A stretch of 64,000 nt of DNA from Crossaster papposus. Taxonomy: Eukaryota > Echinodermata > Asteroidea > Velatida > Solasteridae. The stretch is taken from NCBI GenBank assembly GCA_037893245.1, contig JBAIAA010000531.1, positions 186,001-250,000 of the forward strand, in the 5' to 3' direction. The position numbers and the translations under genes were made by a program. Of the stretch, positions 1,087-56,204 are shown one piece after another (position 1 is the first letter of the stretch; every line of letters starts with the position of its first letter). Under the pieces are notes generated by a model. That model did no database searches and was not told where the DNA came from. It worked only from the letters and a program-made list of their open reading frames with translations.

Positions 1087-1241
1087 CCTGGTGGCATTGC
1101 CGTGAAGTTCTGGAATGGAGCCGTCCAGGGTGTAGAGAATAGTGGCCATCTGGGACGTAGACTGAAGCTCCACGGTGTGGAAACGTTCAACAACACCGCC
1201 GTTAGAGATTGACATTATCACAGGCATCGATGATAGAGACT
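1087..1241 (-). CDS. Gene 1 exon 23, chitobiase C-terminal-like module
   Basis: 51 codons, acceptor ATATTTCAG, donor GTATGT, phase 0 out. MSISNGGVVERFHTVELQS, then MATILYTLDGSIPE. The I-x-YTLDGSxPE motif is typical of chitobiase/hexosaminidase C-terminal (CHB_HEX_C_1) and Fn3-associated modules. The module is incomplete; the next exon must lie left of 1087 or outside the window. Confidence 0.88.
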
Positions 1242-4200
1242 CTGAAATATTCATAAAAATAGAGATTGTTGCCTTTTTGGCAGGCGATTCCTATATATTT
1301 TGTGTATTTTTAAGGTTTTTTTAATGTGCCCTTTGACCTATTTGAAAAGAGTTGTGATGAACCCCCACCCAAGGATCACTCCATCCAAGTTACATGAAAA
1401 TTCATCAAATTCTGTAGACAAAGAAATATTTGTTCAAACAATGACCTGTAATGACCTTTGACCTCAGTTATCGAATGAAGAATTGTGTCTTCCCATTCAA
1501 GGGCCACTACATCCAAGTTTCACCAAAATCCATGAAAGCATGTCAAAGTTTATTTTTAAAACGTATCCTAAAAACCTTAACATACACACAGAGATGAGGT
1601 CATACACATACAGAATTTGGGACTGGTGATGAGCACACGCCATAACTTTGTTGAGGTGACTCAACAATTAAGGTGCAATTATCCCACCAGCTGTACTAAA
1701 GAAGAAAACATACATGTATATAATATATATGGCTGGCCAGTTTTAAACATATGTTTAAAACCGGCTCATGGGCCCGGATAAGTTAATGGCCCTAGCCCCA
1801 AAATGCATATCTTTATACATGTACGTTAATACAAAAAAAATTCTGAGGTTCAAAAAGTCTGAATTCCGATAATAATTTGAACAATCTCGTGTTTATTTAA
1901 TGTTTGATACATGTTGTGTGTTTTCCAGACAATGCACACAGCACCAATGCACAAATGTGGTTTCTTACACGTCCGCAAAAGGCGACCACTTTCTGACTGG
2001 AGTTATGACTAAATCCAAACAAGTGATCCCCAAAACTCGTCCCACACAAGAATAACACAAACAAGCCCAGTTGTTTATATCCTACTTTTAAATAATCTTT
2101 CCGATTAACATCAATTCACTTCAGAGACGCATTTTGTAGCCCAATTAGACATTTCCAGAAGATAGTGTCCCTTTAAATCTGCCGGGCAAGCGCTATTCTT
2201 GTTGAAGCAACCTACCATCATCAAGGATGTGTACAACCCCGACGCAGCCCGGCGCCCCTTCCGACGTCTCAAAGAACGTCCCCGGCTCCTCAAAAGTGAA
2301 GATGAAGCTGTTGTTTGGCTCCGGGTTGCCGCTGCTGAAGGCGAGGGGACCGGTGACGAGGCTGTAGGGGCGCTCATGGGACGGGGCATTAGCGTGGACG
2401 ATGTTGTGGGTTTCAAACTGGCTGCCCTTCCATGACCAGAGTACGCTTTGACCCTGTGATATTGAATTATAAATTATATTGACAATTATCCATAAATACA
2501 GTTTAGCTATTCCTAAGAGTCGAGAGCCTGGCACATTGGTAGTCTTAAATGGCCGATAAAACAAGGCTAACCAATACTTAAATATTAATTGTCCTAAATT
2601 TACTCGACATTGAGCAGTAGGCGGAGTGTGCGCATCATCTCCAGTGGAGTGTCGTGGCCTCGTAGTTTGGAGCATTGAATTTGCCCTCTGTGGGTAAAGC
2701 TGCAGGTTGTGGGTTCAAGTCCGGCCTGGGATTATGGTGCGTTTGCCCTTGGGCAAGGCACCTTGTCATAAACAATAGACAGATGGGTGCTTCTCAAAAC
2801 ACAAGATAATTAAAAATGTTGGACAAAATCGGTGAACAATTGTACATTTTGGACTTGTTTTGACTTTATGCCAAAAGTATTTATGATGGGAATAAATTGA
2901 GCAACCTGCGATTTTCTTGCGCCGCAGCGGAACAGTCAGTATCAAGCAGAAAAGTAATGCGCATGAGAAACAATGATTGCTTTGAACACTTAAGTAAAGT
3001 TGTGCACTAAGATAAGCGGGGTGCTTAGATCTTTCGTGAATACCAAATTAAGCGTGGCACTTAAGTTAGCAGGGTGCTTTGATTTAAGTCTGACTTAAGT
3101 GTTTTGTGAATACGTCCCCAGGTCACAAAACTAAGAAATCGCATGATTATCATGGACGAAATAATCCCAACCATGCAATGATTCCTCTAAATGATTTCTC
3201 AAAATAGATGCGATCAAGCACCCCTTCAAATGATGGTGCGCGTGTTGATAACAACCAAACCATCTCTCCACCCAGGAGTAAATGGGTACCTGTGAGGGCA
3301 AAGATGGTTGTTGTGGTTGATTTAGATGCTTTGCGCCAACATGGAAGCATCGAGCTGTATACTCCCCCGGGAGCTGAGATGGTATTTGGAATGTTTTAAT
3401 GGCCAAATGAGCAGGGTTAATAATGCGAGAGCGCCTTGAGCACCAGTCTGGTGGATATGTGTGCTTTATAAATACGCATTCATAAGTACCGGAAAAAGTT
3501 TAGCCATTCCTTTTTGTCGAGAGCCCGACACAAGGGTATGTTTAAACAGCCGATAAAACATGACAAAATCGGTTTTAAACTCTTTTTCGGTGTCACATTA
3601 AATTTTGACTCCTCTAAAGTCTGGTGCATGACCCTTTCATTGGTTGAAACCTCTGAAAGCATGCGCAATACAACCATTGAGTGTGTATACTAATAGTCCC
3701 AATGCCATATCACGCATCTATCATGCACGTTTCTATCTCCATATAAGAGCACGTGCACATACCATTAAAATAGCTGGAGGGGTATTAAATTGTAAAACAA
3801 AATCGGTGGAAAAATGTAAAATTTTGACCTGTTTCGATATTTGACCAAAAGGTAATTATGAATGGGAATAAAAAGGTGGTCGGCCGGTTATTAAACAAGT
3901 ATGTTTGAAACCAGCACATATGCCTGAACATTGTTGATGCCCTCACCTACGGCTCGTGCCTCAAAAACACATCCAAGCCCATGAGCCGATTTTAAACATA
4001 CTTGTTTAAAATTGGCCTACTACATTTTTATTCTCGTTATATTCTTTATGTTATTAATATTTCGTCTTTTACTATTGTCAAACAATGATTTGTTCCTGAC
4101 GGTTACAGCTCTGTTGCAGTTTGAACCCGAGAAGTCAGTCGTCGACTGTTGTGTCTTGTCGCAACGCTGACCTGCGAATAACCACTTACCTTATGTATAC

Positions 4201-7200
4201 TGACGGCAGGAGGCTTGAATCCTTTACTGGACACCATGACAGTGAATGAACCACTAGGATTACTGACAACCACACTGCTGAGGACTGTCTTACTGCTGTG
4301 CTCATACTGTGAAGTTATTAAAAAACCAAGAGAACCAATGGTTGACACATGTTTAAAGTTATATTTATTATACATTGAGACAGTTGACCCATTCCTATTG
4401 ATCGAGAGCTCGTATGTGGCCGGTTTTAAATGGATGATAAAACACCGGGGGCCAGTTTTCAACACTTTTTCAAAATTTAGACGTCTGTGATATCTAGTCG
4501 TCTTACACTTTTTGGGGTTGAAACCTCACAATGCATTCCCAATACCACAAACAGGTTGAAATGTTTTTAATTAGTTCGCGCCGGGATTATTTTAACATCG
4601 CCGAGCCGAAAGTGCCAGGAAGCACACCCACGCAGTTTTGGCCTTGCTCGCTGCTGACAGACATTTCCGAACTTGAACTTGGCGTGTTTATGCGTCATCC
4701 GTTTTGAAGTTTGGGAAATGTTTGCGTTTATATACGTCATCTGGCGCCAACTGGTTAAGCGGCTGAGCGTACGCACAACACCTGGTGCTAGCAATGGATC
4801 TCAATATCTTTTATAGATTAACCACAACCATATTAAATAACAATAATTGTGTGTACATTATTTATTTTGAAGTCACAACATTTCAATTAGATAATATGTT
4901 ACTCAACATTAGTACTAAAAGGTTTGCTTCAGTTAGCACAGTTTTAAGCTCGATTTTTGAGTGAGTGAGTTTTTAGGGTTTAACGCCGTACCAGCATGAA
5001 TGGCCATATTCACGGCGGGAACAAATTTCATTCAACAATTTTTTATTTCATTCAACAATTAATGTGAAGAAGTTACAGTTTTAGAGGTGGGAGGAAAACC
5101 CCAGAAGAATATCCTGGGGAAAAACCCACGGAGTCAGGCAGGGACTGAAAACCCAATCCACATATTGGCCCAGGCCGGATTCGAACCCGGGTCATAGTGG
5201 TGGAAGGCGAGGAAAGAACCGCTACACCAACCCGACTCCCCCTCGATTTTTGAAACTTTTGTAGATTGTTATCCAGCCTCCCATACTTACTGAAAAATTA
5301 AATTAACAAGTCTTCAAAGTTTGGTTACTTTTATTGGTCAAGCGGTGATAATGCTGCATATGCATTGGATTGCATAAATGCATGCCGGTACGTCCGGGTA
5401 CACATCGAATCACATCGAATCACATTGAATCACATAGAAATACAGATCGATCAAGTCAGAATTGCTAACTTTCTGAATCACATGTACATGTACATGGATA
5501 CACATACTCTGCATGCCATGTACACATATTCGTATTTGTATTTCCTTGTGGAGACATCACTTTGTTGTCGTATACAAGTTAGTTAGAAAATTGACAATGT
5601 TTTCTTAAAAATGCTCTTATTTCAAGCACAATTAATTTCCTGGGTTGAAATTTCGACCCAATATACCCTACATGCATATTATACCCTAACCCAAACGCTA
5701 CCCCTAACCCACATCTAATTCTAGTTTTTGAGTACTTTTAAGTTAATCCATATATCTATTTTTGTGAAAAACCTTGTTAAAGAAATTAATACCCTGTAGA
5801 GATGTATTCATTCCCATTGTCCCCATTGTGTTCATTTCTCCACAGGGTACCGTATTTCCCTCCACGCATGCACAAGTCATGTACACAATTGTACAGTGTG
5901 CGTGCATTGTTAAATATGCGGCATTAAAGTAGAAAACGTGATGGGGCGTGTAACTTTCAAGTTTTTTGAAATATAAACATTTTTTTTGAAGTTTTAGGAA
6001 ATTTAATAAATAAAATGGACATCTTTATATACATATACCAAAAAAAATATTTTCTTTGGAGGTAGAAAACATCATTAGTAATTGCTTGAAATATCAGAAA
6101 TGGGTGGATTTTGGGGATTGTATTTTGTAGTAAATATTGTTTATTTGCCCAAAGTTTTACAATTATGGATGTCACGAAAAAGCAAGAAAGACAACCGGTG
6201 TCAGGCAGTTGTTCTGTTGTTTTGGTGGTTTTTTTCTCGTATCTGTAACAGGATATCTAGTGCAATAGAGCTCCATAGACCTTCCCGTTCTAAATATAAC
6301 AGATCGATAAACACAAAATGGTTGTTTTTGCTTGACTTTATTCATCAAAATCAACATTTCTGTGAATGAAACTTGAAACTTTTTCATGAAATGTTTACCC
6401 TCTCAGCGTTGAGCGGGCATTTACACGATAATGCACAATGCGACATATAGTACCCTTTTTGGTAGAGCCAGAACAAATGTTATGTACATCAGCTTAATAC
6501 CTGGTGCTGTATAAAGCTCACCAACTTTTTTTGTTTAACATGTGACGTTACATGTATGATGGCTCTTTACCATAAACTTGTCCGTTTTATTGGAGAACGC
6601 TTTGCTGTAATAGTGGTAGACTCCGGGATTGGAAAACCTCAATGCACAACAGCGCCTGGATAATGGAACGTAACACAAACATGACAAGGACTGAATTTAC
6701 AAAATGACTATTAAGGTTATAAGCTTTAATAGTGCTAACAATTAGAACAAAATACTTGTGACCCAACCCATCAAAATGAGTTACAAGTTGCCAAAAATAC
6801 ATCCGAATAATATGCCAGTATTGTCAGTATGCCAGTAACAGTATTCTACACAATAGAAATCAATGAGAACATTCGACCTTTTTATCCAAACACATGTAAC
6901 ATCTTTAAATTATAAGATGTCAACCAAATTGACGAGCAATTGATGAGCTTTTTACTTCACATGTAAAACTAAAACCTAATAATTTGTCTTTAACCCCTTG
7001 TCCCCGGTGTCAAATGAAAATCATACTCCTATAAAACTCAGACTCTTTTTTCCTACTATTGGTTGAACCCGAATTATCTTCAATCGGGCATGCGCAATAC
7101 TAACAATGAGTCCGCATTTCAAAGAGAGAATATGCATGACTGCACAGCAGCCTTTGTCTTAAACTGCAGAGCACAATGGACCAGAGCATGCAGCTGTGAC

Positions 7201-10200
7201 ACAGGCCATGTTCTACAAAGTAGCACAGCTAACAACAGCATTTCGGACGGATTAGCAAGCTGCGGCCATAACCGCTTCCCGGCATCAAGGGGTAAGACTT
7301 ATTTTGAGGGATTTGGTCAAATATGAAAAAGCTAAGTATTCATTCTCTGGTCGTGCAAAAATGCATGTTGGCAATTATAATATTTTCATTCCCCTTGGAT
7401 GGGTTGCTAACTAATGCTGGTTCCCATTGATACTCCTGGGTGGGGGAAGGCAAGTAGGGGTAAAGTGGCTTGCCCAAGAACACAACACATGGCCAGCAGT
7501 TAGATTCAAACCCCTGACCCTTTGAGTCGCCAACCCTTACCGCTTAGCCACACTCCCCCTATATGGTAATTAACTAATTATGATTAGCAACTGAACCTTG
7601 GCGTGACGATATCCTGCGTGTAGGTCTGAAGCTCAAAGACTTGCTGAGTGTTGGTCAGCTGGGTCACGCCATGCTTGCGGAGTACCGGCCACACCCAGGC
7701 GACGCAGTCATGGGTCTGGGCAAGAACCGGGTCGGGCTGCAAGTGGTTCTTGGCCACCAAAACTTGATGGATCTAATAAACACGTAGATGGGCAAAGGAT
7801 GGTTAATGCAGATGCTTTCCCTAAGGCCGACCATCAAATACCAATCTCTTTCCAGACCGTTCGGGTCAAGCCCATCTGTTAAATCAAAGGGATTGGCATT
7901 TTGGACTGAACCGATCGGGCAGGATTAACTCTCTGATCACCACCCTCTGGCTCATCACAAAGGAAGCAATTTGAAGGATACAGTAGGCGAACAAAAACTG
8001 TGAGCTTCAAAGAGGTTGCCACCGTGCTGGCAATCCCTCCAGACCATTGCATTTGTGTGCGACGCGATGTTTACCTTTTTCTGTTTACAATCCCCCAATA
8101 TGCACTTTTCATGCTAAGCAAAAACTAGCTGAATACAGTCATAAACAATATACCTCATTCTGAATATTTGGTTTAAACCCCTGTTTTTGCCAAAGATGAA
8201 ATGTTCATGCTAAGCAAATTTGTGTGCTTATATGTTTTAGAAAAATTACCCCTGCCATTCTGGCTGAATAATTTCTGTAACAATGGCCACACTTCAACTT
8301 ATGCTGCCTTTTGTTCAAGCCCTGAGGCATCAGTTTGGACCAATCGGGGTTTCACGCCATAACCAGGTGGCTTCTGGCTAAATACTAAGTGAGGAGAAAG
8401 GGATTGGCTTACCAGGCCCGGTACCTGAATGGTCTAGTTTGGTATTCCAACTGCGCCTGGGCACAACAAGATTTGAAGATTTTTCTCCTCCGCTTTTTTA
8501 CTTGCCCTGTATCACCAGTGAAAGTGCTATTTTACATGAACTGCACACGCCCAGTGAGGTATTTCCAACTACCGGTACTTGTTATTATAAAGTTTGACCT
8601 AAACATTTTTTAAAGATCGCCCATGTACAAAGTGTTGTGGGGAAGACCTTTCTTGGCCATTTTTGTCCTTAAACAAATTTCAAACTTCATAGCGTTTTCC
8701 CTAAAAAAAAGAAATAGATTTCGAGAGATTTTTGACGTGGGGAAGATGGAGCCTTTTGTTCTATTGTGTTTTCATACCCAGACTCGGAAGAACAAGGAAA
8801 ACGCAGTATGCCCATTTGGCATCGCCGGGCACAGCACAACAATCCTAACTGTTGAAAAGTGTATTAGAGTCCATTTGTTCCTTTACACTGCCAAAATTTA
8901 TTATCGTATAGGAAACACATACAGGTAGGCCTACACATTCCAAATGTGGACATTCCTTTGTATTCATGTAGTTATGAATTGTCTGCCCCAATACTAATTT
9001 TTATCGCACCCAGATAATTATTTCACCCCAAAATTGTGATTCTGACGCCCTTCGGTGTGTATTTTTATTCTGCGACAGGTGACCCTAACCTGATTTTCCC
9101 ACTGAAGCCCTTTTTCGTAGAGGGCGAAAAGTTGTGTGGACATTTGCGAGTCCACACAGCGATTTTGATTTGTGTACTGTGTGGACATCTTTTGTTTGCA
9201 GCATTTGCAAGCTTCGTACTTGCATGTACAGTGGAACGCCGCTATACAAAAAACCACTATACTGAACATTCGGCTGTACCAAACACGATCCTTGGCTCCC
9301 GATATTTGTAAAAAAAGATACTGAACACAGATGTAACAAAATACACTGTTCTTTGCTCCCAATTTTAGTGTCCAAACATACCAAACATTGTTGTTGAAAA
9401 TGTGTCAGTATTTTTTTAGAAATCCTCTGGGTATATCGAATGCTATTTAGTCTGTTTTTGTTTTTATTCTTCCCAAACGTCAATCTACTAGTGGCTTTAC
9501 ATTAAAGAGGGCACCTGATGGATAGCGGCGCTCCACTGTTTATTGTGAAGGCAGAACACAGGGACAACAGTTTCAATTAAATCCTCCCTTTTTTGATATG
9601 TTTTAAAAATTGCCAGGGTTATCAGTCTCTTACCTGGGATTGTGATACAGTAACTATTGCACCATACAGCTTTGGCAGAGCAACGCTAAAAAACAAAACA
9701 AAACAAACAAAATTAATTGCGCGTACTCGGTACGATATAAAGCGAGTGATCATTTATCGAAAAGTGCATAGCTTGCGCCACTTTTAAGTGGCATAAGGTT
9801 TACGCAACAAAAAAAGTGTGAACTGCACCTCCGATTTTCAGCAGAATCGTGCGGAAACTTAAACAAATTATGTCACAAGGCTTTGAGTGTCTATCATCGA
9901 GGTAATAAGTTGAGAAATATGGCAGGCTCCACGACAATCACGATTTGCTGGTAAAATAGGTACATTTCAGTAGCTACGCCACAACTTACGCCACCTAAAT
10001 TGACTGAGCGAGTTACGCTATAATTTGTTGTGTAAGTTGTGGACTTACGCACTGTCAAACTTTCGCTTAAACAAATCCAAAACAATATGCGATATGAAAA
10101 TCAACTGGATCCGACCGATGGCCTTGTTTCAGTTGGAGATTGAATCGTATTTTAAGCGCACAGATAAAACAGATAAGTATAGGCGGGGCTTATATGTGGA

Positions 10201-34200: not shown

Positions 34201-37200
34201 GAAGGTGTGCTTGTCAGTACCATCAGCCTGAACCCGCCTCGGATCGAGTTTCTGTAAAAATAATCGGCTCGATAAAATAATCGGTTAAAGGGGCACTGTA
34301 GCCTTAAAATCCATGAAAATATCATGTTTTGGATTGTTTACTTTAATATTCTATTTCAAACATCTGGTTGAAAGAAAAGAAAGCTAACCTAATGTTTTAC
34401 CGTTCAACGGAAAAGTCGAGCATCTGACACAACAGGGTACGCATACTTTTTCCTGTCGTTTTCATTTAATGTACGATACACCTTGCGTGTATCCATAATT
34501 TACACACAGTACCAATGCACAAAATAATGTGGTTCTTTACACGTCCGCAAAAGGTAAAAACTTTCCGGGTGGAATCACAACTGCACGCAGATAGTTCTGG
34601 GGTCACAAAAGTGGACCACGAACTCGTTCTACACAAGAATAACACAAAAATGCTCAGGTTTTTGAAGAGTGGTTGTGCGGAAATGCTCTTTCCAATTAAC
34701 ATCATTTCGTTCAAAACGCATTCTGTAGACCCATTGGGCACTTTTAGGAGACGAATGTTAACCCACCTTGATTAGTAAGGGGTTTAGAAGTAATCCTGAT
34801 TTTGTTTTACATATCTAGCTTAATTGGATCTCAAGATATGACCCATTACTGAGAGCATACGTACAAAACTGGCTTGTCCACGGGAAAACAGAAACTATTT
34901 ATGTAAGAAGCTCCCGTGGACAAGCCAGACATACAATCTGTAATGGGCCCTTTAACATTTAATTACCGGTAAACTAGACCTTGCTTTTTTTTCAGGATTA
35001 TTTCTAATGATCCTACTCATCAACACACACATTCTCTTGTTCACAAGTTCACATTGAGTATGGAAGGTTCGTACCGATGTGTATCCCCAATAGGCCTTTA
35101 CATTGTAAATAAAGCCATTATGTTTGTACTCATCATCATGCTCTTCTACCGTATGTCAAATCTCAAACAATTTGCAAATCCTCCAACCTTTAGAAAGACG
35201 GAGATTAATGGACCTGGAATTCAATTATAGTCAAAGACCTTTCCGTTAATTTTTGATTCCATTACAATGTACAACGAAGGCGTACATGTAGCTTGTGCAT
35301 CAAATTCAAGTCTGACTATTAACCTGAATACCGGCCAGCCTATAGGATTTCTTGTGCAAACAATGCCACAATCGATTCCATTTATAATTGGTATATTACC
35401 AACTACGAGTACATGTACAATGATCCAGTTCGGTATTGCAACAAATCATATTGTTAGATCTTTTTGCAGGACACAGTACCGGTATGTGCAATTTTTTAAA
35501 CAAAAATTATGTACCCGGTACACTATACATGAACATAGTACACGCAGTCGTGAACCACATAACGATCGAGGATCGATATTGTGTTTTCCTTTATTCCTAT
35601 GTTATACCCTAACCCCATTGCCTAGCGCTTGCACCGTCGATCGAGGACCAAATTTTTCCATTCATACCGTCGACCGAGGGGCTTTTGTTTCCTTTGTTCT
35701 CTTTTGTGCTTCGACCCTCAGTCGTTATGTGGTACCAGAGCATACATTTTCATGTTAAAATAAGGTTGTGTAATGCTTTAGGGCTTATTAAATTTACTCC
35801 AATTATATCATGGAGCTATAAAAAGGAAGGAGGTCGAACAACCAGGAGATCAAACAAACAACTCTCATGCCGCGCTCGTTAACGTATTAGTATTAACCAC
35901 AAACCAGCCATTACATACACGCACGGCCTTAATTGCGACCGCAAAGCATTATGAGATGTGAAGAGCTGATCTGTGTATGCGCATTGTTGGCAAAAAGCGA
36001 GCGGCGTACGCAAAGCGAGAGTACTACACCAAGTTGGATTTAGCGATTTCAACGAAAATGATTGATATTTTTTGCAAAGTAAAAATTACGTACACCTTCG
36101 TACACTATAGACACGACCAAACAGAGAAAATCATCCACAACAACCTTATATCATATCATAAAGTTTTCTCCGGATGATTTAATATTTAACTTATCATAAC
36201 TTGGCAACGGATGGTCCAATTTTGAAATGCAGAAATAAAAATGGCGCATAAAAAACACAAACATGAAGCTACTGTGCATGTGATAATTAGATTGTTCCAA
36301 CATTCACTACTTTAATAAGAGTAAAGTCCATGTTTTGACCTCAAACAAATTGCAACAAACAATTTTTCACCACAATGCATTTCTAAAAGGTCCCCACAAT
36401 GACATACCGTACTAAAAGTCTTTAAAAATCCAAGTGGTGAAAACCTTTTCCTATTTTGCATAAATCGTTAATCCCTGCCGCGTAATATATTTATTCCTAT
36501 ATTTGGTACGTGTATATATTTTATTTTTTGAAAAGTTTATTTTGGTGATTCTACTTACCGGTACATATATATCTCTACTTCAATAACATTTTTTCTAAAG
36601 CATATAAGTGACTGATTAATTATGAAAACATAGTAATTATCCAAAATGACAACTTTGTGACCCTATTAATGTGCGCACATTACACTGTCTCCAAATTAAC
36701 TAAGTTGCTTACTGGCACAGTTATCATATTAAAACCTTATGGAAAATGTTATGAACAATGATAACATTGTGATATTTAGCCCAGCAAACAAAAACTGGGG
36801 AAAATGGTTTTAATAGGATAAAGTTTTAATAGAATAACTGTGGCTGGTACATGTAAGCTGGTTTTTACAAAGCAAGAGTGTTTTGTGCTTAATTTGTATG
36901 CTTAAGCAGCTCTATGAAATTGGCCCCAGACCAGAAAGAGTAAATTGCGGTATAGCAAAAGCTTACCTGCTGTATATTATGGCCATTGCTGCCCAAAGAT
37001 GCATTCCAATGTATTGAGATGCTCTGAATAGAAAACAAGAATATGAAAGCAAGATGATTACAATATTATGATGATGAATCAATATTATTACCATAATATA
37101 TATTTTAACGCAATGTCATTTTATTTTAATACAATCCTTGATAATGCACCTTTGCGACCCATTTATTAAACTCAAATTTTCATTAAATTGTCTTTTTCCG

Positions 37201-40200
37201 TTTTGGGTATTTTGATGCCTTTTTGGTTTTAAGGTGAATTGTTTATATTTCTAAGCAAATGTACTAGTGTGATGTCACTTCAGGCAGAAACCTCAATCAT
37301 GTTGTCAATGTTAAAGCTCATGTACAGTACTTCATCAAAAATAGCGAGATACATGTTTTGCTTATGAATCTCAACAGTTAACGGTTGTCAGTTCATATTA
37401 TATTGCTCTCAATTGTTCAAAATCCAGTATTTGAATGTGTACATAAGTATGTAAATGAACAGATACCTTTATGTACCGGTACACATTATACAACACGCGT
37501 TGAGCATGCAGTCACACAGTTAGGAGCAGAACACTCCTAAATCAAAATTTGAAATTAATTAATAAATAACTAATTCGAAAGCTCATAATAAATACAATGC
37601 TAGAAAATTATCAATTCAGTTTGAAAATCCATTTGTCAGGGTGCATGCACCCCCCTAAAAGCACGGTAACACAAACTTCAAAGTGTTAAAATATTTGTAT
37701 ACAATTAAAACATTAAAATGGCTAGTGTTAATTGTCATTCCGTAACACTTGAACCTAGCTGTCCAGTACAAACAGGTACTGTAGTCTGAAAAATTATATC
37801 AATCCAGACAGCACTATACGTATCCTGCTGATCACATTCAGTTTTTTAACGGCTGATTGCTGAACGTGTAATCAGCTGTAATTATCATGCTAAAAGTTGT
37901 ATGTGCACACAAAGCAATTACAAGCCTGCCTGTTATTCTGTTTCCATGGCAATATCACTCATCAACCCCCTACCTACATGTACATGTACAAAAGCGACAT
38001 ATTAATCACTGACAAACTCTACATGTCTGTGCAAGCTGTCAAATCAATTGCTGGGTTGCTGGGTCTTTGTGCTGGGTACACATTGTGACGGTAATTGGTT
38101 GGATACATGTACTGTACACCAAGCAAAGTCCACCACCACTCTCATACATTGTGTAGTTTACCGTGTACAAATGGAGAAAGTGTAAATTCCACTTGCTGTA
38201 CATAATATGCATCAGCATTACATTACGTACCGGTTCATATTGTATTACATGTACATATATTACACTATACATGTACATACGACACACAATTTGAAATTAT
38301 ATAAACAATGTTTTTTACTACCAAATTATTAAGAAAAATCTTACTTATTTGTAAGTAAATTGATTCTATAGACATCCAGCAAAATGATTGCGCTAAATAT
38401 CCTGTAATTGTTCGGAAAAAAAGAATTATATAAAAAACAACAAGAACAACTGCCCGACGCTGGTTCAAATGTCATTTAACCAGTTTGCGCCGGGATTATT
38501 TTAACATCACCGAGCCGAGGCGCGAGATTATTTTTTGTTAACGAAACTTGATCCGAGGCGGGTTCAGGCCGATGGTACTGGGCAGCACGCCCACAAATTT
38601 CCGGCCTTGCTCGCAGCTGAAAGACATTCTGGCCTTGCTCGTGATGTGCTTATGCTGATGATTCCGTTTTGAATCTAGGAAAAACTTTGCGTGTATACCC
38701 CCTCCGGCGCGAACAATAACCATTTCACATCGGAGGACGTGTAATGCATGCAAAGTCTTTCCGAAATTCAAAACGAATGACGAAAAAACACGTCACAAGC
38801 AAGGCCGGAAATATCTGTCAGAATGTCAGAGACCAGTTCACAGCGAGCAAGACCAAAATTATCAGGTTGTGCTACCCACAGATGCCAGCCTGAACCCGTT
38901 TCGGATCGCTGTTTGTTAAAAAACAATCCCGCACCTGGGCCCGGTCAGTCATTTGTCAATGTCAACAAATCCCGCCGCAAACTAGTTAAAATAAGAATTC
39001 AAAGAAAAGAATCCTTCTGGATAGCATGTACTAGTTTACCAGACTTTTACAGCATACCTGTCCTTCGCTAACAGTGACTTCCGCTGGAGAGAAGCCAAGT
39101 TTGGTCAGACCTATACGAACGATGTCTGTGGTGCCAGTGTTTCCTGGAGAGAAGTAGGAGTAATCAGAACAAACAATCAATTGGACCGAAGAGCGTTGTG
39201 TATAGACATAGAAAAAGGAACAGTATAGACGAATCTGATGGACGATGCATGGTGGTGCGCCCTCATTATTGGACGTGGCCATTGTGGGAGGCCAGTATAC
39301 AAATATTGAATGTTTATGAGTGCGTTGGTAAGAATAATGTTCTATTCTACTCGGCTTCGCCTTGTGGAATAGAACATGCCATCTAGTCACCTCAAGAAAT
39401 TATTCCTACCATTGCACGAATGTGAAACATTCATTATTTTGATTTAATAAATACCTAGGAGAGTGGATGGCTTCTGATTGGTCGAGACTCGATCACGTAG
39501 AGGGCATTATTTTGTAGTAATTGACAGGCTTTCAAGAAGAAGCGAATAAATGTCTCCTGAACCAGCATTATTCAAGCATCATGTACATGTAAGCCAATGA
39601 TTGGCCAAATGCAAGAGTCCTACGGTAACTTGTAACAAGGTACTGCGCGCTATAAATGTATGCAAAGAATGTTTGTATATGCGCGGCATTTTTCAAAATG
39701 CGCGTGTTGTCTGTTAACGCTAGCGCATTGCTATGCACGGTGGGCATCGGTAGTCTGGTCCCTAAGTATGGGTAACACTAACAACACATATAGAAGAGAT
39801 TGGGTACCATGCAAGCTAAAACATTGCCCCTGAACATGAACACGAATAGCTGGAAAGAAAAGTCCCAAAATGTTGAGCATTTTCACCATTTTTCTCGTTA
39901 AAAAGGTTTTTATTAAAGGGAATAACAGTGCGAGGGCCCGGTTATTACTGCGTGATACTGACCGGGTTGGGGGATGACTGCTGGTAATGGACCTCGCCTT
40001 CAGCTCGGTCCATAATTACCAGCGGTCACCCCCTAACCCGGTCATTATTACGCAGTAATAACCGGGCCCTCGCACTGTTATTCCCTAAGTAATGACTGGG
40101 TCCTCGCACTGTTATTCCCTAATTATACAACGCCTGAATAACTAGAAAACTAGAAGTAACTAGAAAATGCGCGCATTCCCCGTTGGATAGCCATGTGATA

Positions 40201-41394: not shown

Positions 41395-41435
<41 letters not shown>

Positions 41436-42408
41436 ACCCCTCGTCTCTAATTGTCCCAGGCTAACGAAAGTACCCCTCTCGCAGTTTTAAATGTGCCCTT
41501 TTAAGATGTAAACAATAAAACTGCCCCTCAAACGAACACATAAAAGCCGTATCGCGCTCCTCTCTCTAAATGTGCAAAACTGCCCCTCAAAAACACAAAT
41601 TCTCCCTTGTGCATAAATACAAGATTGTTAACCCTCTCGGAAAAATACACCTCAAAATCAATAAAGTTGCACCCCTCTGATCTAGAAATGGTAAATTTGC
41701 CATCAAAAACAATAGTGTCCTCTTGAGATAGTTTATCGAGATGAACAACTGACCTACCGGTATCTGACGTTTTACAATCATAAATGCTAAGGAAAGCAAG
41801 AAAAACAGCGTTCGTTTTTAACTGGCGTCGGGCAGTGATTCTTATGTTTTTGTTTTTTTCACAATCGCCATCCGGCGATTGGGATTGCCGGTGAATTTTT
41901 GTTTAGAATTTAAATTATAGGATTATAGGATTATAGGATATCTAGCGCAATCATTTTGCTGGATGCCTACAATCATTATTTACTTTCAAATAATTAAGAT
42001 ATTTTGTGATAATTCGGTAGTAAAAATTGTCAATATCTGCAGAATGGTGTCTAATAGAGAACATTTTATAAAAATAAACACTGCGCGCAAAATAAACACA
42101 AATTGCAAGATGGACAACGCGTATTTATAATTCGTTCCTCGTCATACATACAGGTTTATAATATCAAAATGAAGGGGACCATAATTTCACACCAATGTAA
42201 GTTCCCTTTTTTTCTACCGGAACACTAAAACTACAGGTACACTTTTATCCCACATTCTTTCCCCGAAAAACCTGAGAATGTTTGTACCTTTCTTGGGAGG
42301 TTGTGACTTTGACGTCCATGTGCTGGTGCTATTTTTCTTGAGCTTTTGGTGATGATGTTGGCTTGGCGTCAACCCCACGGCAGTATCCTTGGATGCGCCA
42401 GTCCCCAT
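1087..42408 (-). CDS. Multi-cupredoxin repeat protein, 23 exons, 3' end outside window
   Basis: Spliced gene running leftward. I joined 23 exons by homologous repeats, GT-AG borders and matching phases; they sum to 2637 nt (879 codons) with no stop. Layout by residue: 1-44 basic, Ser/His/Lys-rich N-terminus starting MGTGASK; cupredoxin-like repeats at about 45-150, 150-215 (degenerate), 218-310, 312-421, 423-532, 535-626, 629-722 and 724-826; chitobiase/hexosaminidase C-like module from about 831. Repeat signatures are GF-P near the first strands, GD-V-W-W at the middle and PGVFYY at the end. Type-1 copper requires His, Cys, His and Met; no repeat keeps all four, so most are probably structural. 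No signal peptide or membrane segment is seen; the start fits N-myristoylation. Many repeats share a phase-0 intron just after the W-W strand, which supports tandem duplication. Function unknown. The fold call is family knowledge; the cytosolic location is inference. Confidence 0.85.
1325..1690. repeat. Dispersed repeat with TGACCTTTGACC words
   Basis: Contains repeated ATGACCTTTGACCTC and TCCATCCAAGTT words, a style shared in part with 21820-22080. No ORF. Confidence 0.4.
1725..1810. repeat. Fragment of the palindromic GGCTCATGGGC element
   Basis: TTTTAAACATATGTTTAAAA followed by CCGGCTCATGGGCCCGG matches half of the palindrome at 21578-21765. Confidence 0.55.
1905..2176. mobile_element. 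MITE family F4, partial copy
   Basis: Shares the segment with CACGTCCGCAAAAGG and ACACAAGAATAACACAAA with 34285-34755 and 42755-43530; it ends AGTGTCCCTTTAA, the inverse of the TTAAAGGGGCACT start at 34285. Confidence 0.65.
2216..2453 (-). CDS. Gene 1 exon 22, bulk of repeat 8
   Basis: 79 codons: GQSVLWSWKGSQFETHNIVH, LVTGPLAFSSG, FIFTFEEPGTFFETSEGAPG and CVGVVHILDD. Has the HNIVH loop and an EPGTFF end strand; the Cys sits late (GCVGVV), not in the copper loop. Local GC is clearly higher than the surrounding introns. Confidence 0.95.
2645..2795 (+). mobile_element. tRNA-derived SINE, 5' part
   Basis: tRNA-like start with a B-box-like GGTTCAAGTCC, then CCCTTGGGCAAGGCACCTTGTC. Same family as the fuller copy at 18372-18745. 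Confidence 0.7.
3245..3476 (+). mobile_element. SINE, 3' part
   Basis: Matches the 3' two thirds of the 18372-18745 SINE (GGGTACCTGTGAG, GCATCGAGCTGTATACTCCC, GTGTGCTTTATAAATACGCA). Confidence 0.7.
3477..4035. mobile_element. Composite MITE with palindromic 3' section
   Basis: Starts CATTCATAAGTACC near GTCGAGAGCCCG and has an inner ATGAATGGGAATAAA, then a palindrome around ATGAGCCGATTTTAAACATA. Related copies are at 17540-18035 and 26624-27080. Confidence 0.65.
4190..4306 (-). CDS. Gene 1 exon 21, end of repeat 7 and start of repeat 8
   Basis: 39 codons, phase 0 both sides, acceptor CTTCACAG, donor GTAAGT: YEHSSKTVLSSVVVSNPSGS, then FTVMVSSKGFKPPAVSIHK. Confidence 0.93.
4378..4480. repeat. 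Fragment of the GTCGAGAGCCCG element
   Basis: TTCCTATTGATCGAGAGCTC and GTGGCCGGTTTTAAA match the 5' part of the 26624 copy. Confidence 0.5.
4567..4758. mobile_element. MITE family F1 copy
   Basis: Opposite orientation to the 700-941 copy. Ends TTAATTAGTTCGCGCC and GGCGCCAACTGGTTAA, TTAA at both sides, about 50 bp shorter inside. Confidence 0.8.
4963..5243 (-). mobile_element. tRNA-derived SINE, second family
   Basis: On the minus strand it begins GAGTCGGGTTGGTGTAGCGG with B box GGGTTCGAATCCGGC and a long tRNA-unrelated body; related to 17275-17530. Next to a GAGT microsatellite. Confidence 0.7.
6045..6280. mobile_element. MITE family F2, truncated copy
   Basis: GAGGTAGAAAACATCATTAG, then GGGTGGATTTTGGGG and AACAGGATATCTAGTGCAAT correspond to the complete copy at 28863-29249. 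Confidence 0.65.
6571..6637 (-). CDS. Gene 1 exon 20, 67-bp exon of repeat 7
   Basis: Codes FSNPGVYHYYSKAFSNKTDK then FM; donor GTAAAG. PGVYHYY is the signature end strand; the Cys ligand position is Tyr/Ser. Confidence 0.9.
7395..7562 (-). mobile_element. tRNA-like SINE fragment
   Basis: On the minus strand GGGGAGTGTGGCTAAGCGGT leads to B box GGGTTTGAATCT and CTTGGGCAAGCCACTTTACC. Confidence 0.6.
7597..7772 (-). CDS. Gene 1 exon 19, repeat 7
   Basis: 58 codons: IHQVLVAKNHLQPDPVLAQT, HDCVAWVWPVLRKHGVTQLT and VFELQTYTQDIVTP. Central strand CVAWVW and KHGVTQ His loop. The usual intron after the W strand is absent. Donor GTTCAG is weak but phase-consistent. Confidence 0.92.
7773..9000. other. 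Gene 1 intron, nothing identified
   Basis: No exon, repeat family or RNA gene could be supported. A minus-strand stretch near 7975-8055 looks open but lacks splice sites that fit. Confidence 0.4.
9003..9190. repeat. Dispersed repeat with GTGGACxxxTGCxxxGTCCAC hairpin
   Basis: Shares CACTGAAGCCCTTTTTC and GTGTGGACATTTGCGAGTCC words with 40925-41045 (inverse) and, more loosely, with 52505-52760 and 58085-58300. Confidence 0.5.
9231..9537. mobile_element. MITE with CAGTGGAACGCCGCTAT ends
   Basis: Inverted ends CAGTGGAACGCCGCTAT and ATAGCGGCGCTCCACTG (one mismatch), 307 bp. The CAGTGGAAC start recalls pogo/Tigger-type Tc1-mariner ends; a TA duplication is not clean. Confidence 0.65.
9634..9685 (-). 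CDS. Gene 1 exon 18, 52-bp exon closing repeat 6
   Basis: Acceptor TTTTTTAG, donor GTAAGA. Codes VALPKLYGAIVTVSQSQ; GAIVTVSQS parallels GVVVVKPRA. Its length (1 modulo 3) is exactly what is needed to bring exon 17 into frame with exon 19. Confidence 0.88.
9686..11071. other. Gene 1 intron, nothing identified
   Basis: Contains ACATGTAC-rich stretches and short ORFs without family resemblance. Confidence 0.4.
11072..11184 (-). CDS. Gene 1 exon 17, repeat 6 second half
   Basis: 37 codons: VSRHGHPTKEGFCSGLPQDS and FVRQFNAGAVVYYQ. GFCSG matches the GF-S strand and GAVVYY the GVFYY strand. Donor GTGAGT. Confidence 0.93.
11390..11715. mobile_element. MITE family F2 copy
   Basis: AAAGATAGGATACACCATTA start and an internal GATAACAAGAAAAGCAAG and TTTTGCTGGATGCCTA body like 28863-29249; the right terminal repeat is lost. 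Confidence 0.7.
12000..12350. repeat. Dispersed repeat shared with 35560-35720
   Basis: Both carry TTTGTTCTCTTTTGTG(T/C)TTCGA and CCCTTTGTTCC/CCTTTATTCC segments with GACCGAAGATC/GATCGAGGATC motifs. Confidence 0.45.
12787..12903 (-). CDS. Gene 1 exon 16, first half of repeat 6
   Basis: 39 codons, phase 0 both sides: HCITVSDTGFEPKVLRVHPG, then DRVWWLWETTRQQHNIIQ. The intron sits right after HNIIQ, as in repeats 1, 4 and 5. Confidence 0.95.
13188..13770 (+). pseudogene. Non-LTR retrotransposon ORF2 C-terminal fragment
   Basis: An open stretch codes LYGSETWTLLKSDLRRLESF, NQRCQRSILGIQW and RRRTTFFGHITRLAHNIPAK, the region that follows the reverse transcriptase in LINE ORF2 proteins. Frames break after 13610, where WDGLPRLHVCMWNEV is still readable in another frame. 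It ends in a GTGA repeat (13763-13782), as expected for a LINE tail. 5'-truncated and dead. Confidence 0.85.
13783..13920. repeat. Dispersed repeat (GCTCGCCATAGACGAATCTTG family)
   Basis: The inverse of this segment recurs at 19050-19135 and partly at 14605-14690 (ACTAGTTT-GTTGCAACA and CTTGTGAGCT-ACGTC). Confidence 0.65.
14335..14590. mobile_element. Inverted-repeat element
   Basis: Long imperfect palindrome: GATTTGGCTGCGACTTTGGC with GCTATGCTGTTGCTA on the left, GTAGCAACAGCATAGC with AGTCACAGCCAAAGCC on the right, flanked by AGAGATATCTCTAAA. Confidence 0.65.
14728..14791. mobile_element. MITE family F2, terminal fragment
   Basis: Inverse copy of the F2 end: CCACCCATTCATGATAATTC then AATGGTGTATCCTACCTTAA. 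Confidence 0.65.
14822..14979 (-). CDS. Gene 1 exon 15, end of repeat 5
   Basis: 52 codons. TVQLNTPGVYHYRVSD is the F-PGVYYY end strand, and SVIANPGQK parallels VVVVKPRAK of repeat 4. Donor AAAAG|GTACAA. A copy of the TTAAAGGTAG MITE lies only about 30 bp past this donor. Confidence 0.93.
15068..15200. repeat. Palindromic GGCTCATGGGC element
   Basis: TTTTAAACAAGGCTCATGGGC and GCCCATGAGCCAGTTTTAAAC arms around a GCTCAAGCCGAAGGCGAGGG loop. Confidence 0.7.
15457..15511 (-). CDS. Gene 1 exon 14, 55-bp exon of repeat 5
   Basis: Codes VDRCVASDNKSVAEVDCI; donor GTAAGT. Two Cys residues 13 apart could form a disulfide or metal site; phase joins both neighbours. Confidence 0.85.
16172..16412. mobile_element. 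MITE family F1 copy
   Basis: TTAACCAGTTTGTGC start and GGCGCGAACTGGTTAA end, 241 bp, immediately abutted by an F2 fragment (AAAGATAGGATACACC). Confidence 0.8.
16410..16515. mobile_element. MITE family F2, 5' fragment
   Basis: AAAGATAGGATACACCATTG to AACTGACCTGTTCCAAGTTTTG, cut off by the minisatellite. Confidence 0.65.
16528..16779. repeat. Minisatellite, CGGGTGTGCTAACCCAC unit
   Basis: About 15 tandem units of 16-17 bp (CCGGGTGTGCTACCCACA and TCGGGTGTGCTAACCCA variants). Each unit contains the near-palindrome GGGTGTGCTAACCC. It is followed by one half of an F1 MITE. Confidence 0.95.
16780..16868. mobile_element. MITE family F1, half copy
   Basis: CTTGCTAGTGATGTGTTTAT to GACGTGGACTGGTTAA, matching one end of F1; the other half is replaced by the minisatellite. 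Confidence 0.65.
16898..17032. repeat. GTACTCGTACTCA-rich repeat
   Basis: Irregular runs of TACTCGTACTCA and TACTTGTACTCA, probably the end of a degenerate DNA element. Confidence 0.5.
17075..17157 (-). CDS. Gene 1 exon 13, repeat 5 middle
   Basis: Codes LSVINSGDRIWWNWDVDNIQ plus DSFPVMQ, phase 0 out. The first copper His is absent here (DSFP replaces the usual H-x-I-Q). Confidence 0.93.
17275..17530 (+). mobile_element. tRNA-derived SINE, second family
   Basis: CCACCACTGTGGCCAAGG with GTTCGATTCTTGGCCTGG (B box region) and TTTTAAGTCCCTACCTGATT match the inverse of 4963-5243. Confidence 0.6.
17535..18040. mobile_element. Composite MITE, GTCGAGAGCCCG type plus palindrome
   Basis: Starts CTTCATAAATACCTAATACA, ends GGTATTTATGAATGGGAATA, then a palindromic section (CAGCTCATGGGAC, TTTTAAACATACTTG). 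It stops about 20 bp before gene 1 exon 12. Confidence 0.65.
18058..18215 (-). CDS. Gene 1 exon 12, end of repeat 4 and start of repeat 5
   Basis: Codes FHEPGVFYYCDNNYDD, EYLGVVVVKPRAK and HHVEVTAEGFYP. A Cys follows FYY as in type-1 copper sites, but the expected His is Asn and the Met position reads Leu, so copper binding is doubtful. Confidence 0.94.
18372..18745 (-). mobile_element. tRNA-derived SINE, nearly full length
   Basis: On the minus strand: GAGTGCCGTGGTCTCGTGGT start, B-box-like GGGTACAAATCC, body with CATCGAGCTGTATACTCCCA, TATATAAGTACTGCC and an (ATT)n tail at 18380-18398. Confidence 0.8.
18956..19016. repeat. Short minisatellite, GTCGGTGCGTTACC unit
   Basis: Four 14-16 bp units (TACCGTCGGTGCGT, TACTGACGGTGCGT) followed by the ATTTAGAGATATCTCTAAA motif of 14335-14590. 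Confidence 0.85.
19310..19416 (-). CDS. Gene 1 exon 11, repeat 4 middle
   Basis: Acceptor TGTATAG, donor GTGAGT, phase 0 in and 2 out. Codes CKKQHRIQQMEVPTGHAISD and GFSSDAP, the His-bearing loop (QHRIQQ) and the following strand. Confidence 0.92.
19710..19965 (-). pseudogene. CR1/L2-type LINE 3' end
   Basis: Minus-strand reading MPLVWNRLPAAIRSVDNLKN, VKANLKTHLFKHYS and ALGCLGDMESVF is the C-terminus of CR1/L2 ORF2, followed by an AATAATCAT-like tail. 5'-truncated. Confidence 0.85.
19966..21055. other. Gene 1 intron, low-content stretch
   Basis: Three imperfect repeats of TTTTCATGAAGGGACGC (20170-20310). GGTTCTGGCAAAATGAGACGGAAC near 20790 recurs inverted at 24410 and 59590. No gene found. 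Confidence 0.4.
21060..21210. mobile_element. Element of the TTAACCCTAACTCC family (F3-like)
   Basis: GGCTGCTTTATAGCTCAATGGTTAACC, TTTTAACACTTTGGAATTG and AGTTAGGGTTAATAA also occur at 60528-60725 and in part at 27440-27560. Confidence 0.6.
21226..21409 (-). CDS. Gene 1 exon 10, end of repeat 3 and start of repeat 4
   Basis: 61 codons, acceptor TTGCAG, donor GTCAGT, phase 0 out. HPGLFYFQTEGAEDGEMQLC and VVHVRATQ close repeat 3; DHYVEVTDRRFSPRLLIVSQ and GDRVWWLWDRFK open repeat 4. This is one of the clearest cupredoxin signatures in the gene. Confidence 0.95.
21578..21765. repeat. Near-perfect palindromic element
   Basis: Arms GGAATAAATACGTGGTTGGC...GGCCAACCACATATTTATTCC with inner CCGGTTTCAAACATACGTTTAAA and its inverse; the loop carries GAGCCGAAGGCAAGGCC. 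About 185 bp, MITE-like. Confidence 0.85.
21766..23004. other. Gene 1 intron, no gene
   Basis: Includes ACTTTGACTTTGAATTTGACC-type words (22020-22060) similar to 1325-1690; otherwise nothing supportable. Confidence 0.4.
23005..23049 (-). CDS. Gene 1 exon 9, 45-bp exon of repeat 3
   Basis: Codes TSAPMQSGSYKHDF between split Glu and Pro codons; donor GTGAGT. It fills the F-strand before HPGLFYF in exon 10, and both junction codons work. Confidence 0.88.
24000..24275. mobile_element. MITE family F2, inverted copy with insertion
   Basis: Inverse F2 body (TTTCTCAGCATTTATGATTG, AGGTCAGTTAAACGATAT) is separated from its end (AATGATGTATCCTACCTTTAA) by about 120 bp of other DNA. Confidence 0.65.
24464..24612 (-). 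CDS. Gene 1 exon 8, repeat 3
   Basis: Acceptor TTTTCTTCAG, donor GTGAGT. Codes 49 residues: LTEERFVPSLLHIEQGNSV, KWVWNSIHQGHSVREV and KLCPKHCG. The GNSVKWVW segment is the central strand; a Cys/His-rich stretch follows. Unlike several other repeats, no intron splits it after the W strand. Confidence 0.93.
25047..25120. repeat. Perfect 37-bp tandem duplication
   Basis: Two identical copies (25047-25083, 25084-25120) starting TTGCAACGTATTTGCC; no other array around them. Confidence 0.95.
25121..26600. other. Gene 1 intron, nothing identified
   Basis: AT-rich DNA with short chance ORFs only. Confidence 0.4.
26624..27060. mobile_element. MITE, GTCGAGAGCCCG type
   Basis: Inverted ends ATTCATAAATACCTGG and AGTATTTATGAATGGG. 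The 5' part, TTCCTATTGGTCGAGAGCCC, is shared with 3477, 4378, 17540 and 2505-2560. Confidence 0.75.
27683..27755 (-). CDS. Gene 1 exon 7, end of repeat 2 / start of repeat 3
   Basis: Acceptor TTTTTACAG, donor GTAAGA. Codes DGYEANSGKVLHVTVRSRRY then VMAE. GKVLHVTV matches the last strand (GVVVV) of other repeats. Confidence 0.88.
28863..29249. mobile_element. MITE family F2, complete reference copy
   Basis: 387 bp, inverted ends TTAAAGGTAGTATACACCAT and ATGGTGTATACTACCTTTAA with TTAA at each border. The body contains GTTTGTTTTCCACCGG and CTCGCCGGACGGCGAG (hairpin). No ORF. At least nine partial copies lie in this window. Confidence 0.9.
29864..29969 (-). CDS. Gene 1 exon 6, degenerate repeat 2
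   Basis: Acceptor AATTGCAG, donor GTACAT, phase 1 in and phase 2 out. Codes 34 whole codons including DHLASQHSTVGLKFINKRED. Cupredoxin resemblance is weak; assigned by frame continuity with both neighbours. Confidence 0.72.
30328..30530. repeat. Inverted repeat with paired NRF1-like and ATGGCGGA motifs
   Basis: Arms about 30344-30402 and 30460-30512: ATGGCGGA, then CTGCGCAGGCGCGGCGTGCA on the left and TGCACGCCTGCGCAG then TCCGCCAT on the right. Each arm holds a TGCGCAGGCG NRF1-type site and a YY1-like GCCAT. Could be a MITE or a bidirectional promoter. Confidence 0.75.
30600..30950. repeat. Imperfect 210-bp direct duplication
   Basis: GTGATTTAAAACAATGGCGAC...GGCCGGCGTATCGGGGACAA (to 30711) recurs as GTGATTGGAAACAAAGCCAAC...GGCCGGCGTATCGGGGACAA (to 30913). 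Confidence 0.65.
31093..31189 (-). CDS. Gene 1 exon 5
   Basis: Codes 32 residues including CGSGWKSSVDVKLISRPVLL and ends in phase 1 at a strong GTAAGT donor. The acceptor TTAG lacks a clear pyrimidine tract; it was chosen because it joins exon 4 in frame just after an in-frame stop. The donor and phase are secure; the 5' border is less so. Confidence 0.7.
32690..33503. mobile_element. Foldback element with about 150-bp inverted arms
   Basis: Left arm 32690-32838 and right arm 33343-33503 pair over nearly their whole length (GTTCAAAACTGTC, GCCTTCTGCGGCCAATCG, ATCACGAATCA shared inversely). The centre has a GAT microsatellite (33277-33294) next to CTTATATAGCGCCGGCA. No transposase ORF. Confidence 0.8.
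33912..34034 (-). CDS. Gene 1 exon 4, repeat 1 second half
   Basis: Codes 41 residues containing AVHSVQGGYNSGTQ, then FDVQFNLQGEFCFV, the F-x-x-x-G-x-Y-type end strand with a Cys. Donor chosen as TTG|GTGAAC (phase 0); an alternative GTTGGT donor four bases upstream in the transcript (exon end 33916) would give phase 2, which the next exon does not fit. Confidence 0.82.
34072..34288. mobile_element. MITE family F1 copy
   Basis: TTAACCAGTTCCCTGG start and ATAATCGGTTAA end. It abuts exon 4 of gene 1 by under 40 bp and shares its last TTAA with the F4 copy that follows. Confidence 0.75.
34285..34755. mobile_element. MITE family F4 copy
   Basis: TTAAAGGGGCACTGTAGCC start, then GATTGTTTACTTTAATATTC, CACGTCCGCAAAAGG, ACACAAGAATAACAC and GTAGACCCATTGGGCAC, colinear with 42755-43530. 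Confidence 0.7.
34756..36966. other. Gene 1 intron, no gene
   Basis: 35560-35720 holds repeated CCGTCGATCGAGG-type words; a 163-codon plus-strand ORF there (35267-35758) lacks any family signal. Confidence 0.4.
36967..37023 (-). CDS. Gene 1 exon 3, repeat 1 middle
   Basis: Short 57-bp exon, phase 0 both sides, donor GTAAGC. Codes SISIHWNASLGSNGHNIQQ, equivalent to the W-W strand and first His region (GHNIQQ) of a cupredoxin. Confidence 0.88.
37100..38285. other. Gene 1 intron, nothing identified
   Basis: AT-rich with ACATGTAC runs; no supported feature. Confidence 0.4.
38290..38467. mobile_element. MITE family F2, inverted partial copy
   Basis: ACTACCAAATTATTAAGAAA, CATCCAGCAAAATGATTGCG and CAACTGCCCGACGC match the inverse of 28863-29249. 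Confidence 0.7.
38476..38989. mobile_element. Two F1 MITEs in head-to-head array
   Basis: First copy 38476-38720 (TTAACCAGTTTGCGCC to GGCGCGAACAATAACC), then an opposite-oriented copy to 38989 (AACTAGTTAA). Both share the CAAGGCCGGAAAT core, so the pair makes a large inverted repeat. Confidence 0.75.
39058..39143 (-). CDS. Gene 1 exon 2, start of cupredoxin repeat 1
   Basis: Acceptor CTCTCCAG, donor GTATGC, phase 1 in and phase 0 out. Codes residues 41-69, including TDIVRIGLTKLGFSPAEV, the first strands of a cupredoxin fold, ending VTVSEGQ where other repeats have the GD turn. Confidence 0.9.
39440..39911. mobile_element. MITE-like element, GATTGGTCGAGACTC type
   Basis: AATAAATACCTAGGAGAG with TGATTGGTCGAGACTCGATC resembles the start of the 26624 element; it ends AAGGTTTTTATTAAAGGGAA. 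Confidence 0.5.
39912..40113. repeat. Large near-perfect palindrome
   Basis: Arms GGGAATAACAGTGCGAGGGC and its inverse, GGTTATTACTGCGT/ACGCAGTAATAACC, CCGGGTTGGGGGATGAC/GTCACCCCCTAACCCGG. The loop CTCGCCTTCAGCTCGGTCC recalls the loop of the 21578 palindrome; a further half repeat follows at 40085-40120. Confidence 0.85.
40391..40760. repeat. GGATTCAGGATAC/TGGAGGACTTTGGCGG repeat element
   Basis: TTAACCACCCTGAATCC, CATTTCCTGTTTTGGAGG and repeated TTTGGCGGATTCAAGATAC; the inverse words recur in 43023-43437. Confidence 0.55.
40925..41045. repeat. Copy of the GTGGAC hairpin repeat
   Basis: GGACATGTCCACACAGCGTT and GGGGCTTCACAGGGAACATC are the inverse counterpart of 9003-9190. Confidence 0.5.
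41395..41436. repeat. Poly-C tract, about 40 bp
   Basis: Nearly uninterrupted C run (G run on the gene 1 sense strand). Confidence 0.95.
41740..42055. mobile_element. MITE family F2 copy
   Basis: GCTAAGGAAAGCAAGAAAAA, GGCGTCGGGCAGTGATTC, CATCCGGCGATTGGG and GCTGGATGCCTACAATCATT in the order of the complete copy. Confidence 0.7.
42288..42408 (-). CDS. Gene 1 exon 1 (initiator, myristoylation-type start)
   Basis: Codes residues 1-40 and ends in phase 1 at AAAG|GTACAA. The ATG lies in CACCATGGGG, a near-ideal Kozak context, and an in-frame TAA sits four codons upstream (42418-42420), so this start is well supported. The protein begins MGTGASKD, matching the MGxxxSK pattern of N-myristoylated proteins, and continues His/Lys/Ser-rich without a hydrophobic signal peptide. 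Splicing to exon 2 restores a Gly codon. Confidence 0.85.
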
Positions 42409-54817: not shown

Positions 54818-54892
54818 TCACGTGTCCTGTGAGGCAAGCTTGGATACATCCTCATATGGAATGCCACTCACTGTCTTTCCTGTCATTGGTCC
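54818..54892 (-). CDS. KIN: KIN exon e (terminal, with stop)
   Basis: Codes GPMTGKTVSGIPYEDVSKLA then SQDT and TGA. Acceptor GTAATCAG, phase 0. The LQT|GPMTGK join matches the family's TGPLKG-type segment. Confidence 0.95.
   Translation of the reverse strand, partial: GPMTGKTVSGIPYEDVSKLASQDT

Positions 54893-56139: not shown

Positions 56140-56204
<65 letters not shown>

Follow-up and report, generated by a model that had tools for sequence, protein, structure and literature searches.

The window, meaning the whole stretch of 64,000 nucleotides that was analysed, corresponds to C531:186001-250000 (C531 being contig JBAIAA010000531.1), and positions below are window positions unless marked otherwise, with negative values lying to the left of the first letter. 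A gene was rebuilt on the minus strand from splice-site and codon scores and then by hand, with exons partly picked by eye, producing a multi-exon model of 20 coding exons that runs from 42408 to 1087 and encodes 795 residues with no stops, GT-AG junctions, and consistent phases. The rebuild replaces the 23 exons and 879 residues of the original prediction, and reproduces its gene limits exactly, with the ATG at 42408 and the final in-window donor after 1087. The exons, in which D1-D7 denote cupredoxin-type repeats, are as follows.

42288..42408, minus strand: exon 1, with the ATG, the MGTGASK myristoylation-type start, and 40 Lys/Ser-rich residues; least certain exon
39058..39143, minus strand: exon 2, beginning of cupredoxin repeat D1
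36967..37023, minus strand: exon 3, D1
33916..34016, minus strand: exon 4, D1
27683..27755, minus strand: exon 5, end of D1 and start of D2
24464..24612, minus strand: exon 6, D2
21226..21409, minus strand: exon 7, end of D2 and start of D3
19310..19416, minus strand: exon 8, D3
18058..18215, minus strand: exon 9, end of D3 and start of D4
17075..17157, minus strand: exon 10, D4
15457..15511, minus strand: exon 11, D4
14822..14979, minus strand: exon 12, end of D4
12787..12903, minus strand: exon 13, D5
11072..11184, minus strand: exon 14, D5
9634..9685, minus strand: exon 15, end of D5
7597..7772, minus strand: exon 16, D6
6571..6655, minus strand: exon 17, D6
4190..4306, minus strand: exon 18, end of D6 and start of D7
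2216..2453, minus strand: exon 19, bulk of D7
1087..1241, minus strand: exon 20, start of the CHB_HEX_C_1/Fn3_assoc domain, with its donor at 1086

Several candidate exons were tried and rejected. The one at 26845-26777 fits no repeat and is probably a dispersed element, because a site 73 kb beyond the window's left edge encodes a similar peptide; the one at 16607-16547 sits inside a 17-bp tandem repeat; and the candidate at 5289-5232 and a long form of exon 18 were both discarded. A poly-G run of ~40 bases lies within intron 1, at about 41395-41435.

The neighbouring gene on the same strand is KIN17, identified by its WH_KIN17, KN17_SH3, and C-terminal SH3 pieces, which occupies 54818-62406 (minus strand, stop at 54820-54818) and continues to about 66105 outside the window. 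Its end lies 12.4 kb upstream of the modelled start ATG, and a minus-strand exon scan of the interval from KIN17 to the start showed no other strong exon apart from a minisatellite frame. Minisatellites of the CCCCCCCTAAGGT type occupy 55047-57402, adjoining the last KIN17 exon, and tandem repeats with unit lengths of 322, 176, 147, and 77 bp, several of them TGACGTCA-rich, lie at 48448-51558. A satellite array made of 71 copies of a 23-bp unit (93% matches) lies at 44144-45785, 1.7 kb upstream of exon 1, and an open-frame remnant at 43763-44155 (minus strand) was judged by eye to resemble the reverse-transcriptase tail of a non-LTR retrotransposon.

Seven repeats were delimited in the 795 residues, at residues 48-139, 140-224, 225-331, 332-442, 443-536, 537-643, and 644-743 (D1 to D7). 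About eight had been predicted; what might be counted as an eighth cupredoxin is the CHB_HEX_C_1 domain. The cupredoxin identity proposed for the repeats was upheld by Pfam, NCBIfam, and a PDB profile search, which agree. Against Pfam, the whole 795 residues matched Cupredoxin_1 (PF13473; 2.9e-10, 40.5 bits, cut-off 27) and Copper-bind (PF00127; 1.7e-9, 38.4 bits, cut-off 21.2). Single repeats all fell under the Pfam cut-off, the best being D1 with Copper-bind at 18.8 versus 21.2 bits, and four of the seven (D2, D3, D4, and D6), each searched alone, gave no cupredoxin match in Pfam at E<=1. In NCBIfam, residues 48-373 had plastocyanin (8.7e-6) and halocyanin (1.9e-5) as top matches, both far under the cut-offs of their models. 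A profile of the seven repeats searched against PDB sequences found plastocyanin as its best match (E 8.4e-6) and reached 58 distinct sequences in all at E<=1. Of these, 56 were cupredoxin-type copper proteins (plastocyanins, amicyanins, pseudoazurins, mavicyanin, nitrite reductases, and others), many differing little from one another, and the remaining two were an antibody chain and ZP2.

The repeats were also compared with one another by leave-one-out HMM searches, in which they scored 23.5-67.8 bits against a maximum of 12.6 in 7000 shuffled repeats, a control that ignores the by-eye choice of exons and repeats and so understates chance. Eighteen intron positions were mapped on the repeat alignment, and three sites recur at the same column and phase across repeats: D1, D4, and D5 share column 43 (phase 0), D1 and D5 share column 113 (phase 2), and D5 and D6 share column 2 (phase 0). 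These common intron positions are independent support for the repeats. AlphaFold2, run on exon 19 alone with seven other window exons as the alignment, gave a pLDDT of 47.9 and a pTM of 0.30, values too low to be informative on the fold. From the profile matches, we infer that the seven cupredoxin-type repeats would form beta-sandwich folds.

The window holds only the 5' quarter of the gene and leaves it incomplete. The minus-strand model continues ~66 kb past the left edge to a stop at C531:119920 (window -66080), and the full model, which is approximate, has 68 exons, 3,511 residues, and a span of 108 kb. The end of the gene is a judgement: a path search left free as far as -75000 ran through weak, repeat-rich exons to a stop at -74481, and the terminal exon with the stop at -66080 was read by eye, after which the search was limited to -66300. 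Each run of the path search gives one best path, and an earlier stop is possible. Exon 20 together with the next two exons encodes a domain that matched CHB_HEX_C_1 (2.5e-8, 34.2 bits, cut-off 22) and Fn3_assoc (2e-7, 31.5 bits, cut-off 23). Further downstream the model has a long block that is probably disordered; the acidic block at -11197 to -12298, modelled as two exons, may be a single one. The fn3 family was found in four downstream pieces, with E-values of 9.9e-17, 1.3e-22, 1.2e-9, and 7.1e-13 and with 2, 3, 1, and 2 stretches at E<=0.1, respectively. At the C-terminus, a Cys-rich segment precedes a segment containing ...VSVAELFGVLATPTIIILHPEG... (C531:119920-127000, window -66080 to -59000), which by eye resembles the second half of a thioredoxin fold; no match for this likeness was found in Pfam, PDB sequences, or NCBIfam.

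Where such a protein would reside depends on its first exon. MGTGASK begins at the ATG at 42408, in the context TTCACCATGG, with an in-frame TAA four codons upstream, as originally predicted. The context had been called a near-ideal Kozak sequence; among the window's 1305 minus-strand ATGs, only 5, this one counted, score at least as high. PMC5492501 defines the N-myristoylation motif as a Gly at the N-terminus and, once Met has been removed, Ser or Thr as the fifth residue, and MGTGASK, proposed earlier as a myristoylation-type N-terminus, has both. Of the 5577 ATGs on both strands of 214 kb, 2 carry a strict form of the pattern and 54 a looser PROSITE-like form, both patterns having been fixed after the sequence was seen. 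Judged by the motif, the N-terminus would most likely be N-myristoylated. A Lys-rich stretch comes after MGTGASK, and the predicted lack of a signal peptide at the modelled start was reproduced (residues 1-40, maximum 9-residue hydropathy 0.26).

The alternative that survives best is a secreted or membrane-spanning, mostly extracellular cupredoxin-FN3 protein, whose signal-peptide exon was missed and to which the MGTGASK exon would be unrelated or would belong as a minor isoform. Chains of cupredoxin and FN3 domains are commonly extracellular, and FN3 arrays are present in many secreted proteins, which counts against a cytosolic location. Exon 1 is the least certain exon of the model, predicted from sequence, with a weak donor (AAG/gtacaa, score -0.3) and 40 residues that lack homology support, and 38 further ATG exons are also phase-compatible with exon 2. 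There is also room for another exon: with KIN17 bounding the 5' space, the probable places for an overlooked first exon are the 12.4 kb upstream and the 3.1-kb intron 1. An upstream exon supplying a signal peptide, seen in transcripts, was one of two refutations that the original prediction had named for itself; among the 39 single ATG exons phase-compatible with exon 2 in the genomic sequence from 63990 to 39160 (direct joins, exon 1 counted), none is a convincing signal-peptide exon. The most signal-like ones (63402, 59690, and 61209) encode 13-22 residues and lie inside the KIN17 gene span, and the ATG exon within intron 1 (41006-40868) starts in a poor context.

Two further properties of the chain bear on secretion. 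Across the full model, hydropathy over 19 residues peaks at 2.13 in a segment at residue 3337, near the C-terminus, the next stretch reaching 1.51. The usual membrane-helix cut-off is 1.6, and the segment is by this measure hydrophobic enough for a membrane helix and could span the membrane; because it exceeds the cut-off, it lowers the probability of a cytosolic location and raises that of a secreted or membrane-spanning protein. Because the segment ends in ATPTIIIL, our reading is that it may instead be a buried strand of the thioredoxin-like segment. The second property is the distribution of Cys residues, which in the repeats are scattered over 16 alignment columns, with a single column holding two and none common to more than two of the seven repeats; the repeats therefore have no conserved disulfide, which argues against secretion, as does the strict myristoylation motif at an ATG of top-ranking context. 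N-glycosylation sequons are at chance (4 versus 4.5; downstream, 15 versus 15.6). Weighing both sides, we regard a secreted or membrane-spanning protein as unlikely.

The repeats were also inspected for copper ligands. In plastocyanin these comprise a His early in the chain and a Cys-His-Met loop close to its end. An early His of the first-ligand type (column 39) is present in six of the seven repeats, and the Cys-His-Met copper loop is intact in none: its Cys, second His, and Met are missing in 7/7. A search of the C-terminal loops for Cys-x(2,4)-His found it in 0/7 repeats, the few such strings present falling elsewhere in the repeats. Because no C-terminal loop holds this string, the type-1 copper site appears to have been lost in all seven repeats, as shown for the ligand loop, and the blue (type-1) ligand set of His, Cys, His, and Met is incomplete throughout. 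The Pfam scan of the 795 residues at E<=1 showed no Cu-oxidase families (PF07732 and kin), so the protein does not classify as a multicopper oxidase; elsewhere in the genome PF07732 has 12 matches, none on C531.

A cytosolic copper or redox protein, in which the conserved His and nearby residues would form a non-classical metal site and the thioredoxin-like C-terminus would give electrons, could accommodate the first-ligand-type His and the by-eye likeness of the VSVAELFGVLATPTIIILHPEG segment, and it has a precedent in CupA, presented in PMC5646241 as an intracellular cupredoxin-fold copper chaperone. The loss of the ligand loop from every repeat, and the failure of the three databases to detect the thioredoxin likeness, make this role very improbable. 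Least probable of all is a division into two genes, in which the cupredoxin protein stops shortly past the CHB_HEX_C_1 domain and the FN3 region downstream is encoded separately: the parts are linked by the exon model, not by a transcript, and a score <6 was obtained for 19 of 48 downstream exons, but phases are continuous throughout, and CHB_HEX_C_1, which is split across the window edge between exon 20 and the next exon, improves from 7e-6 to 2.5e-8 once the exons are joined.

On balance, the locus probably encodes a giant animal protein of ~3,500 residues that is cytosolic, myristate-anchored, and copper-dead, and that acts as a scaffold. In such a protein, the N-terminal myristate and the following Lys-rich stretch, as the motif suggests, would anchor the chain to a membrane on its cytosolic side; the seven copper-free cupredoxin-type repeats, with a fold predicted from sequence profiles, would form a stiff beta-sandwich rod; and the rod would be extended by the CHB_HEX_C_1/Fn3_assoc domain, a long, probably disordered and flexible block, and the FN3 array. 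Its role would be that of an intracellular spacer or scaffold that keeps partners at a set distance from the membrane, and not that of an electron carrier. The cytosolic, membrane-anchored cupredoxin array of the original prediction is retained as regards the repeats, the motif, and the absence of a signal peptide, and is revised in that it does not stand alone, being the N-terminal quarter of an FN3 giant.

Relatives were sought with the encoded protein. In its own 1.02-Gb assembly, all 20 matches obtained with the 795 residues fell within this gene on C531 (21 candidates scored), and no paralog was found among these candidates. A CHB_HEX_C_1 family search of the same genome gave 0 matches and also missed the split domain of this gene, which makes it uninformative on others. 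Viral contigs searched with the 795 residues gave 9 pattern matches, and prokaryote genomes searched with a 196-residue piece gave 16, none of either set being confirmed as a relative. No description of such an architecture was found in the open-access literature searched. Each fold is already known, and the novelty would lie in the arrangement of the folds.

Two observations concern the assembly itself. Contig C8 (>5 Mb) carries COX1 matches free of internal stops, one of which beats the mitochondrial copy in family score, and is probably a bacterial symbiont or contaminant. In COX1 on the mitochondrial contig, the codons AAA, ATA, AGA, and TGA stand at positions generally conserved in this protein as Asn, Ile, Ser, and Trp, respectively, which is the code used by echinoderms and flatworms; judged by its look, this COX1 is probably that of an echinoderm.

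We tentatively propose that the gene may represent an undescribed animal family, probably of echinoderms, whose tandem array of cupredoxins would have moved into the cytosol, where, tethered to membranes by a myristoyl group and free of copper, it would serve as the rod at the N-terminus of a giant FN3 scaffold. Cupredoxins are textbook electron carriers that are secreted, periplasmic, or lumenal. If the proposal is true, animals have reused the cupredoxin fold as a building block, in the way that FN3 and Ig domains are used in giant scaffolds, and the protein offers an experimental case of a metalloprotein fold outliving the loss of its metal. With ~108 kb and ~68 exons in the model, the gene is prone to mistaken annotation in pieces.

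Among known systems, plastocyanin, halocyanin, and pseudoazurin (PF00127, PF13473) are alike in sequence profile and repeat length, and share with the repeats a first-ligand-type His-Asn-Ile motif and a PG turn ahead of the last strands. Unlike these small blue copper proteins, the repeats lack the copper loop (0/7), stand in tandem in a giant protein, and follow a start at which a signal peptide was not found. Ephrins are animal ligands with a cupredoxin fold that is copper-free and used for binding, and they are extracellular; no ephrin family was among the Pfam matches of the 795 residues at E<=1. RIM-binding proteins are cytosolic FN3 scaffolds, and a downstream FN3 stretch matched Ig_RIMBP2 just under its cut-off (7e-6, 26.4 bits, cut-off 27); no SH3 family was found at E<=0.1 in the eight downstream pieces scanned, which form part of the model, and we know of no cupredoxin in RIM-binding proteins. 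The N-terminus of DZANK1 is presumably Fn3_assoc-like and in this would resemble the present protein, and to our knowledge DZANK1 has no cupredoxin. PMC4617706 places DZANK1 at the cilium base and gives it zinc fingers and ankyrin repeats. A parallel in location is CupA of Streptococcus pneumoniae, described in PMC5646241 as an intracellular cupredoxin-fold copper chaperone that is brought to the membrane and that carries and reduces copper via cysteines C74 and C111. CupA is bacterial, and the likeness is that of a cupredoxin fold working inside the cell and at the membrane; as described there, CupA is a bacterial exception to the premise that cupredoxins are never cytosolic.
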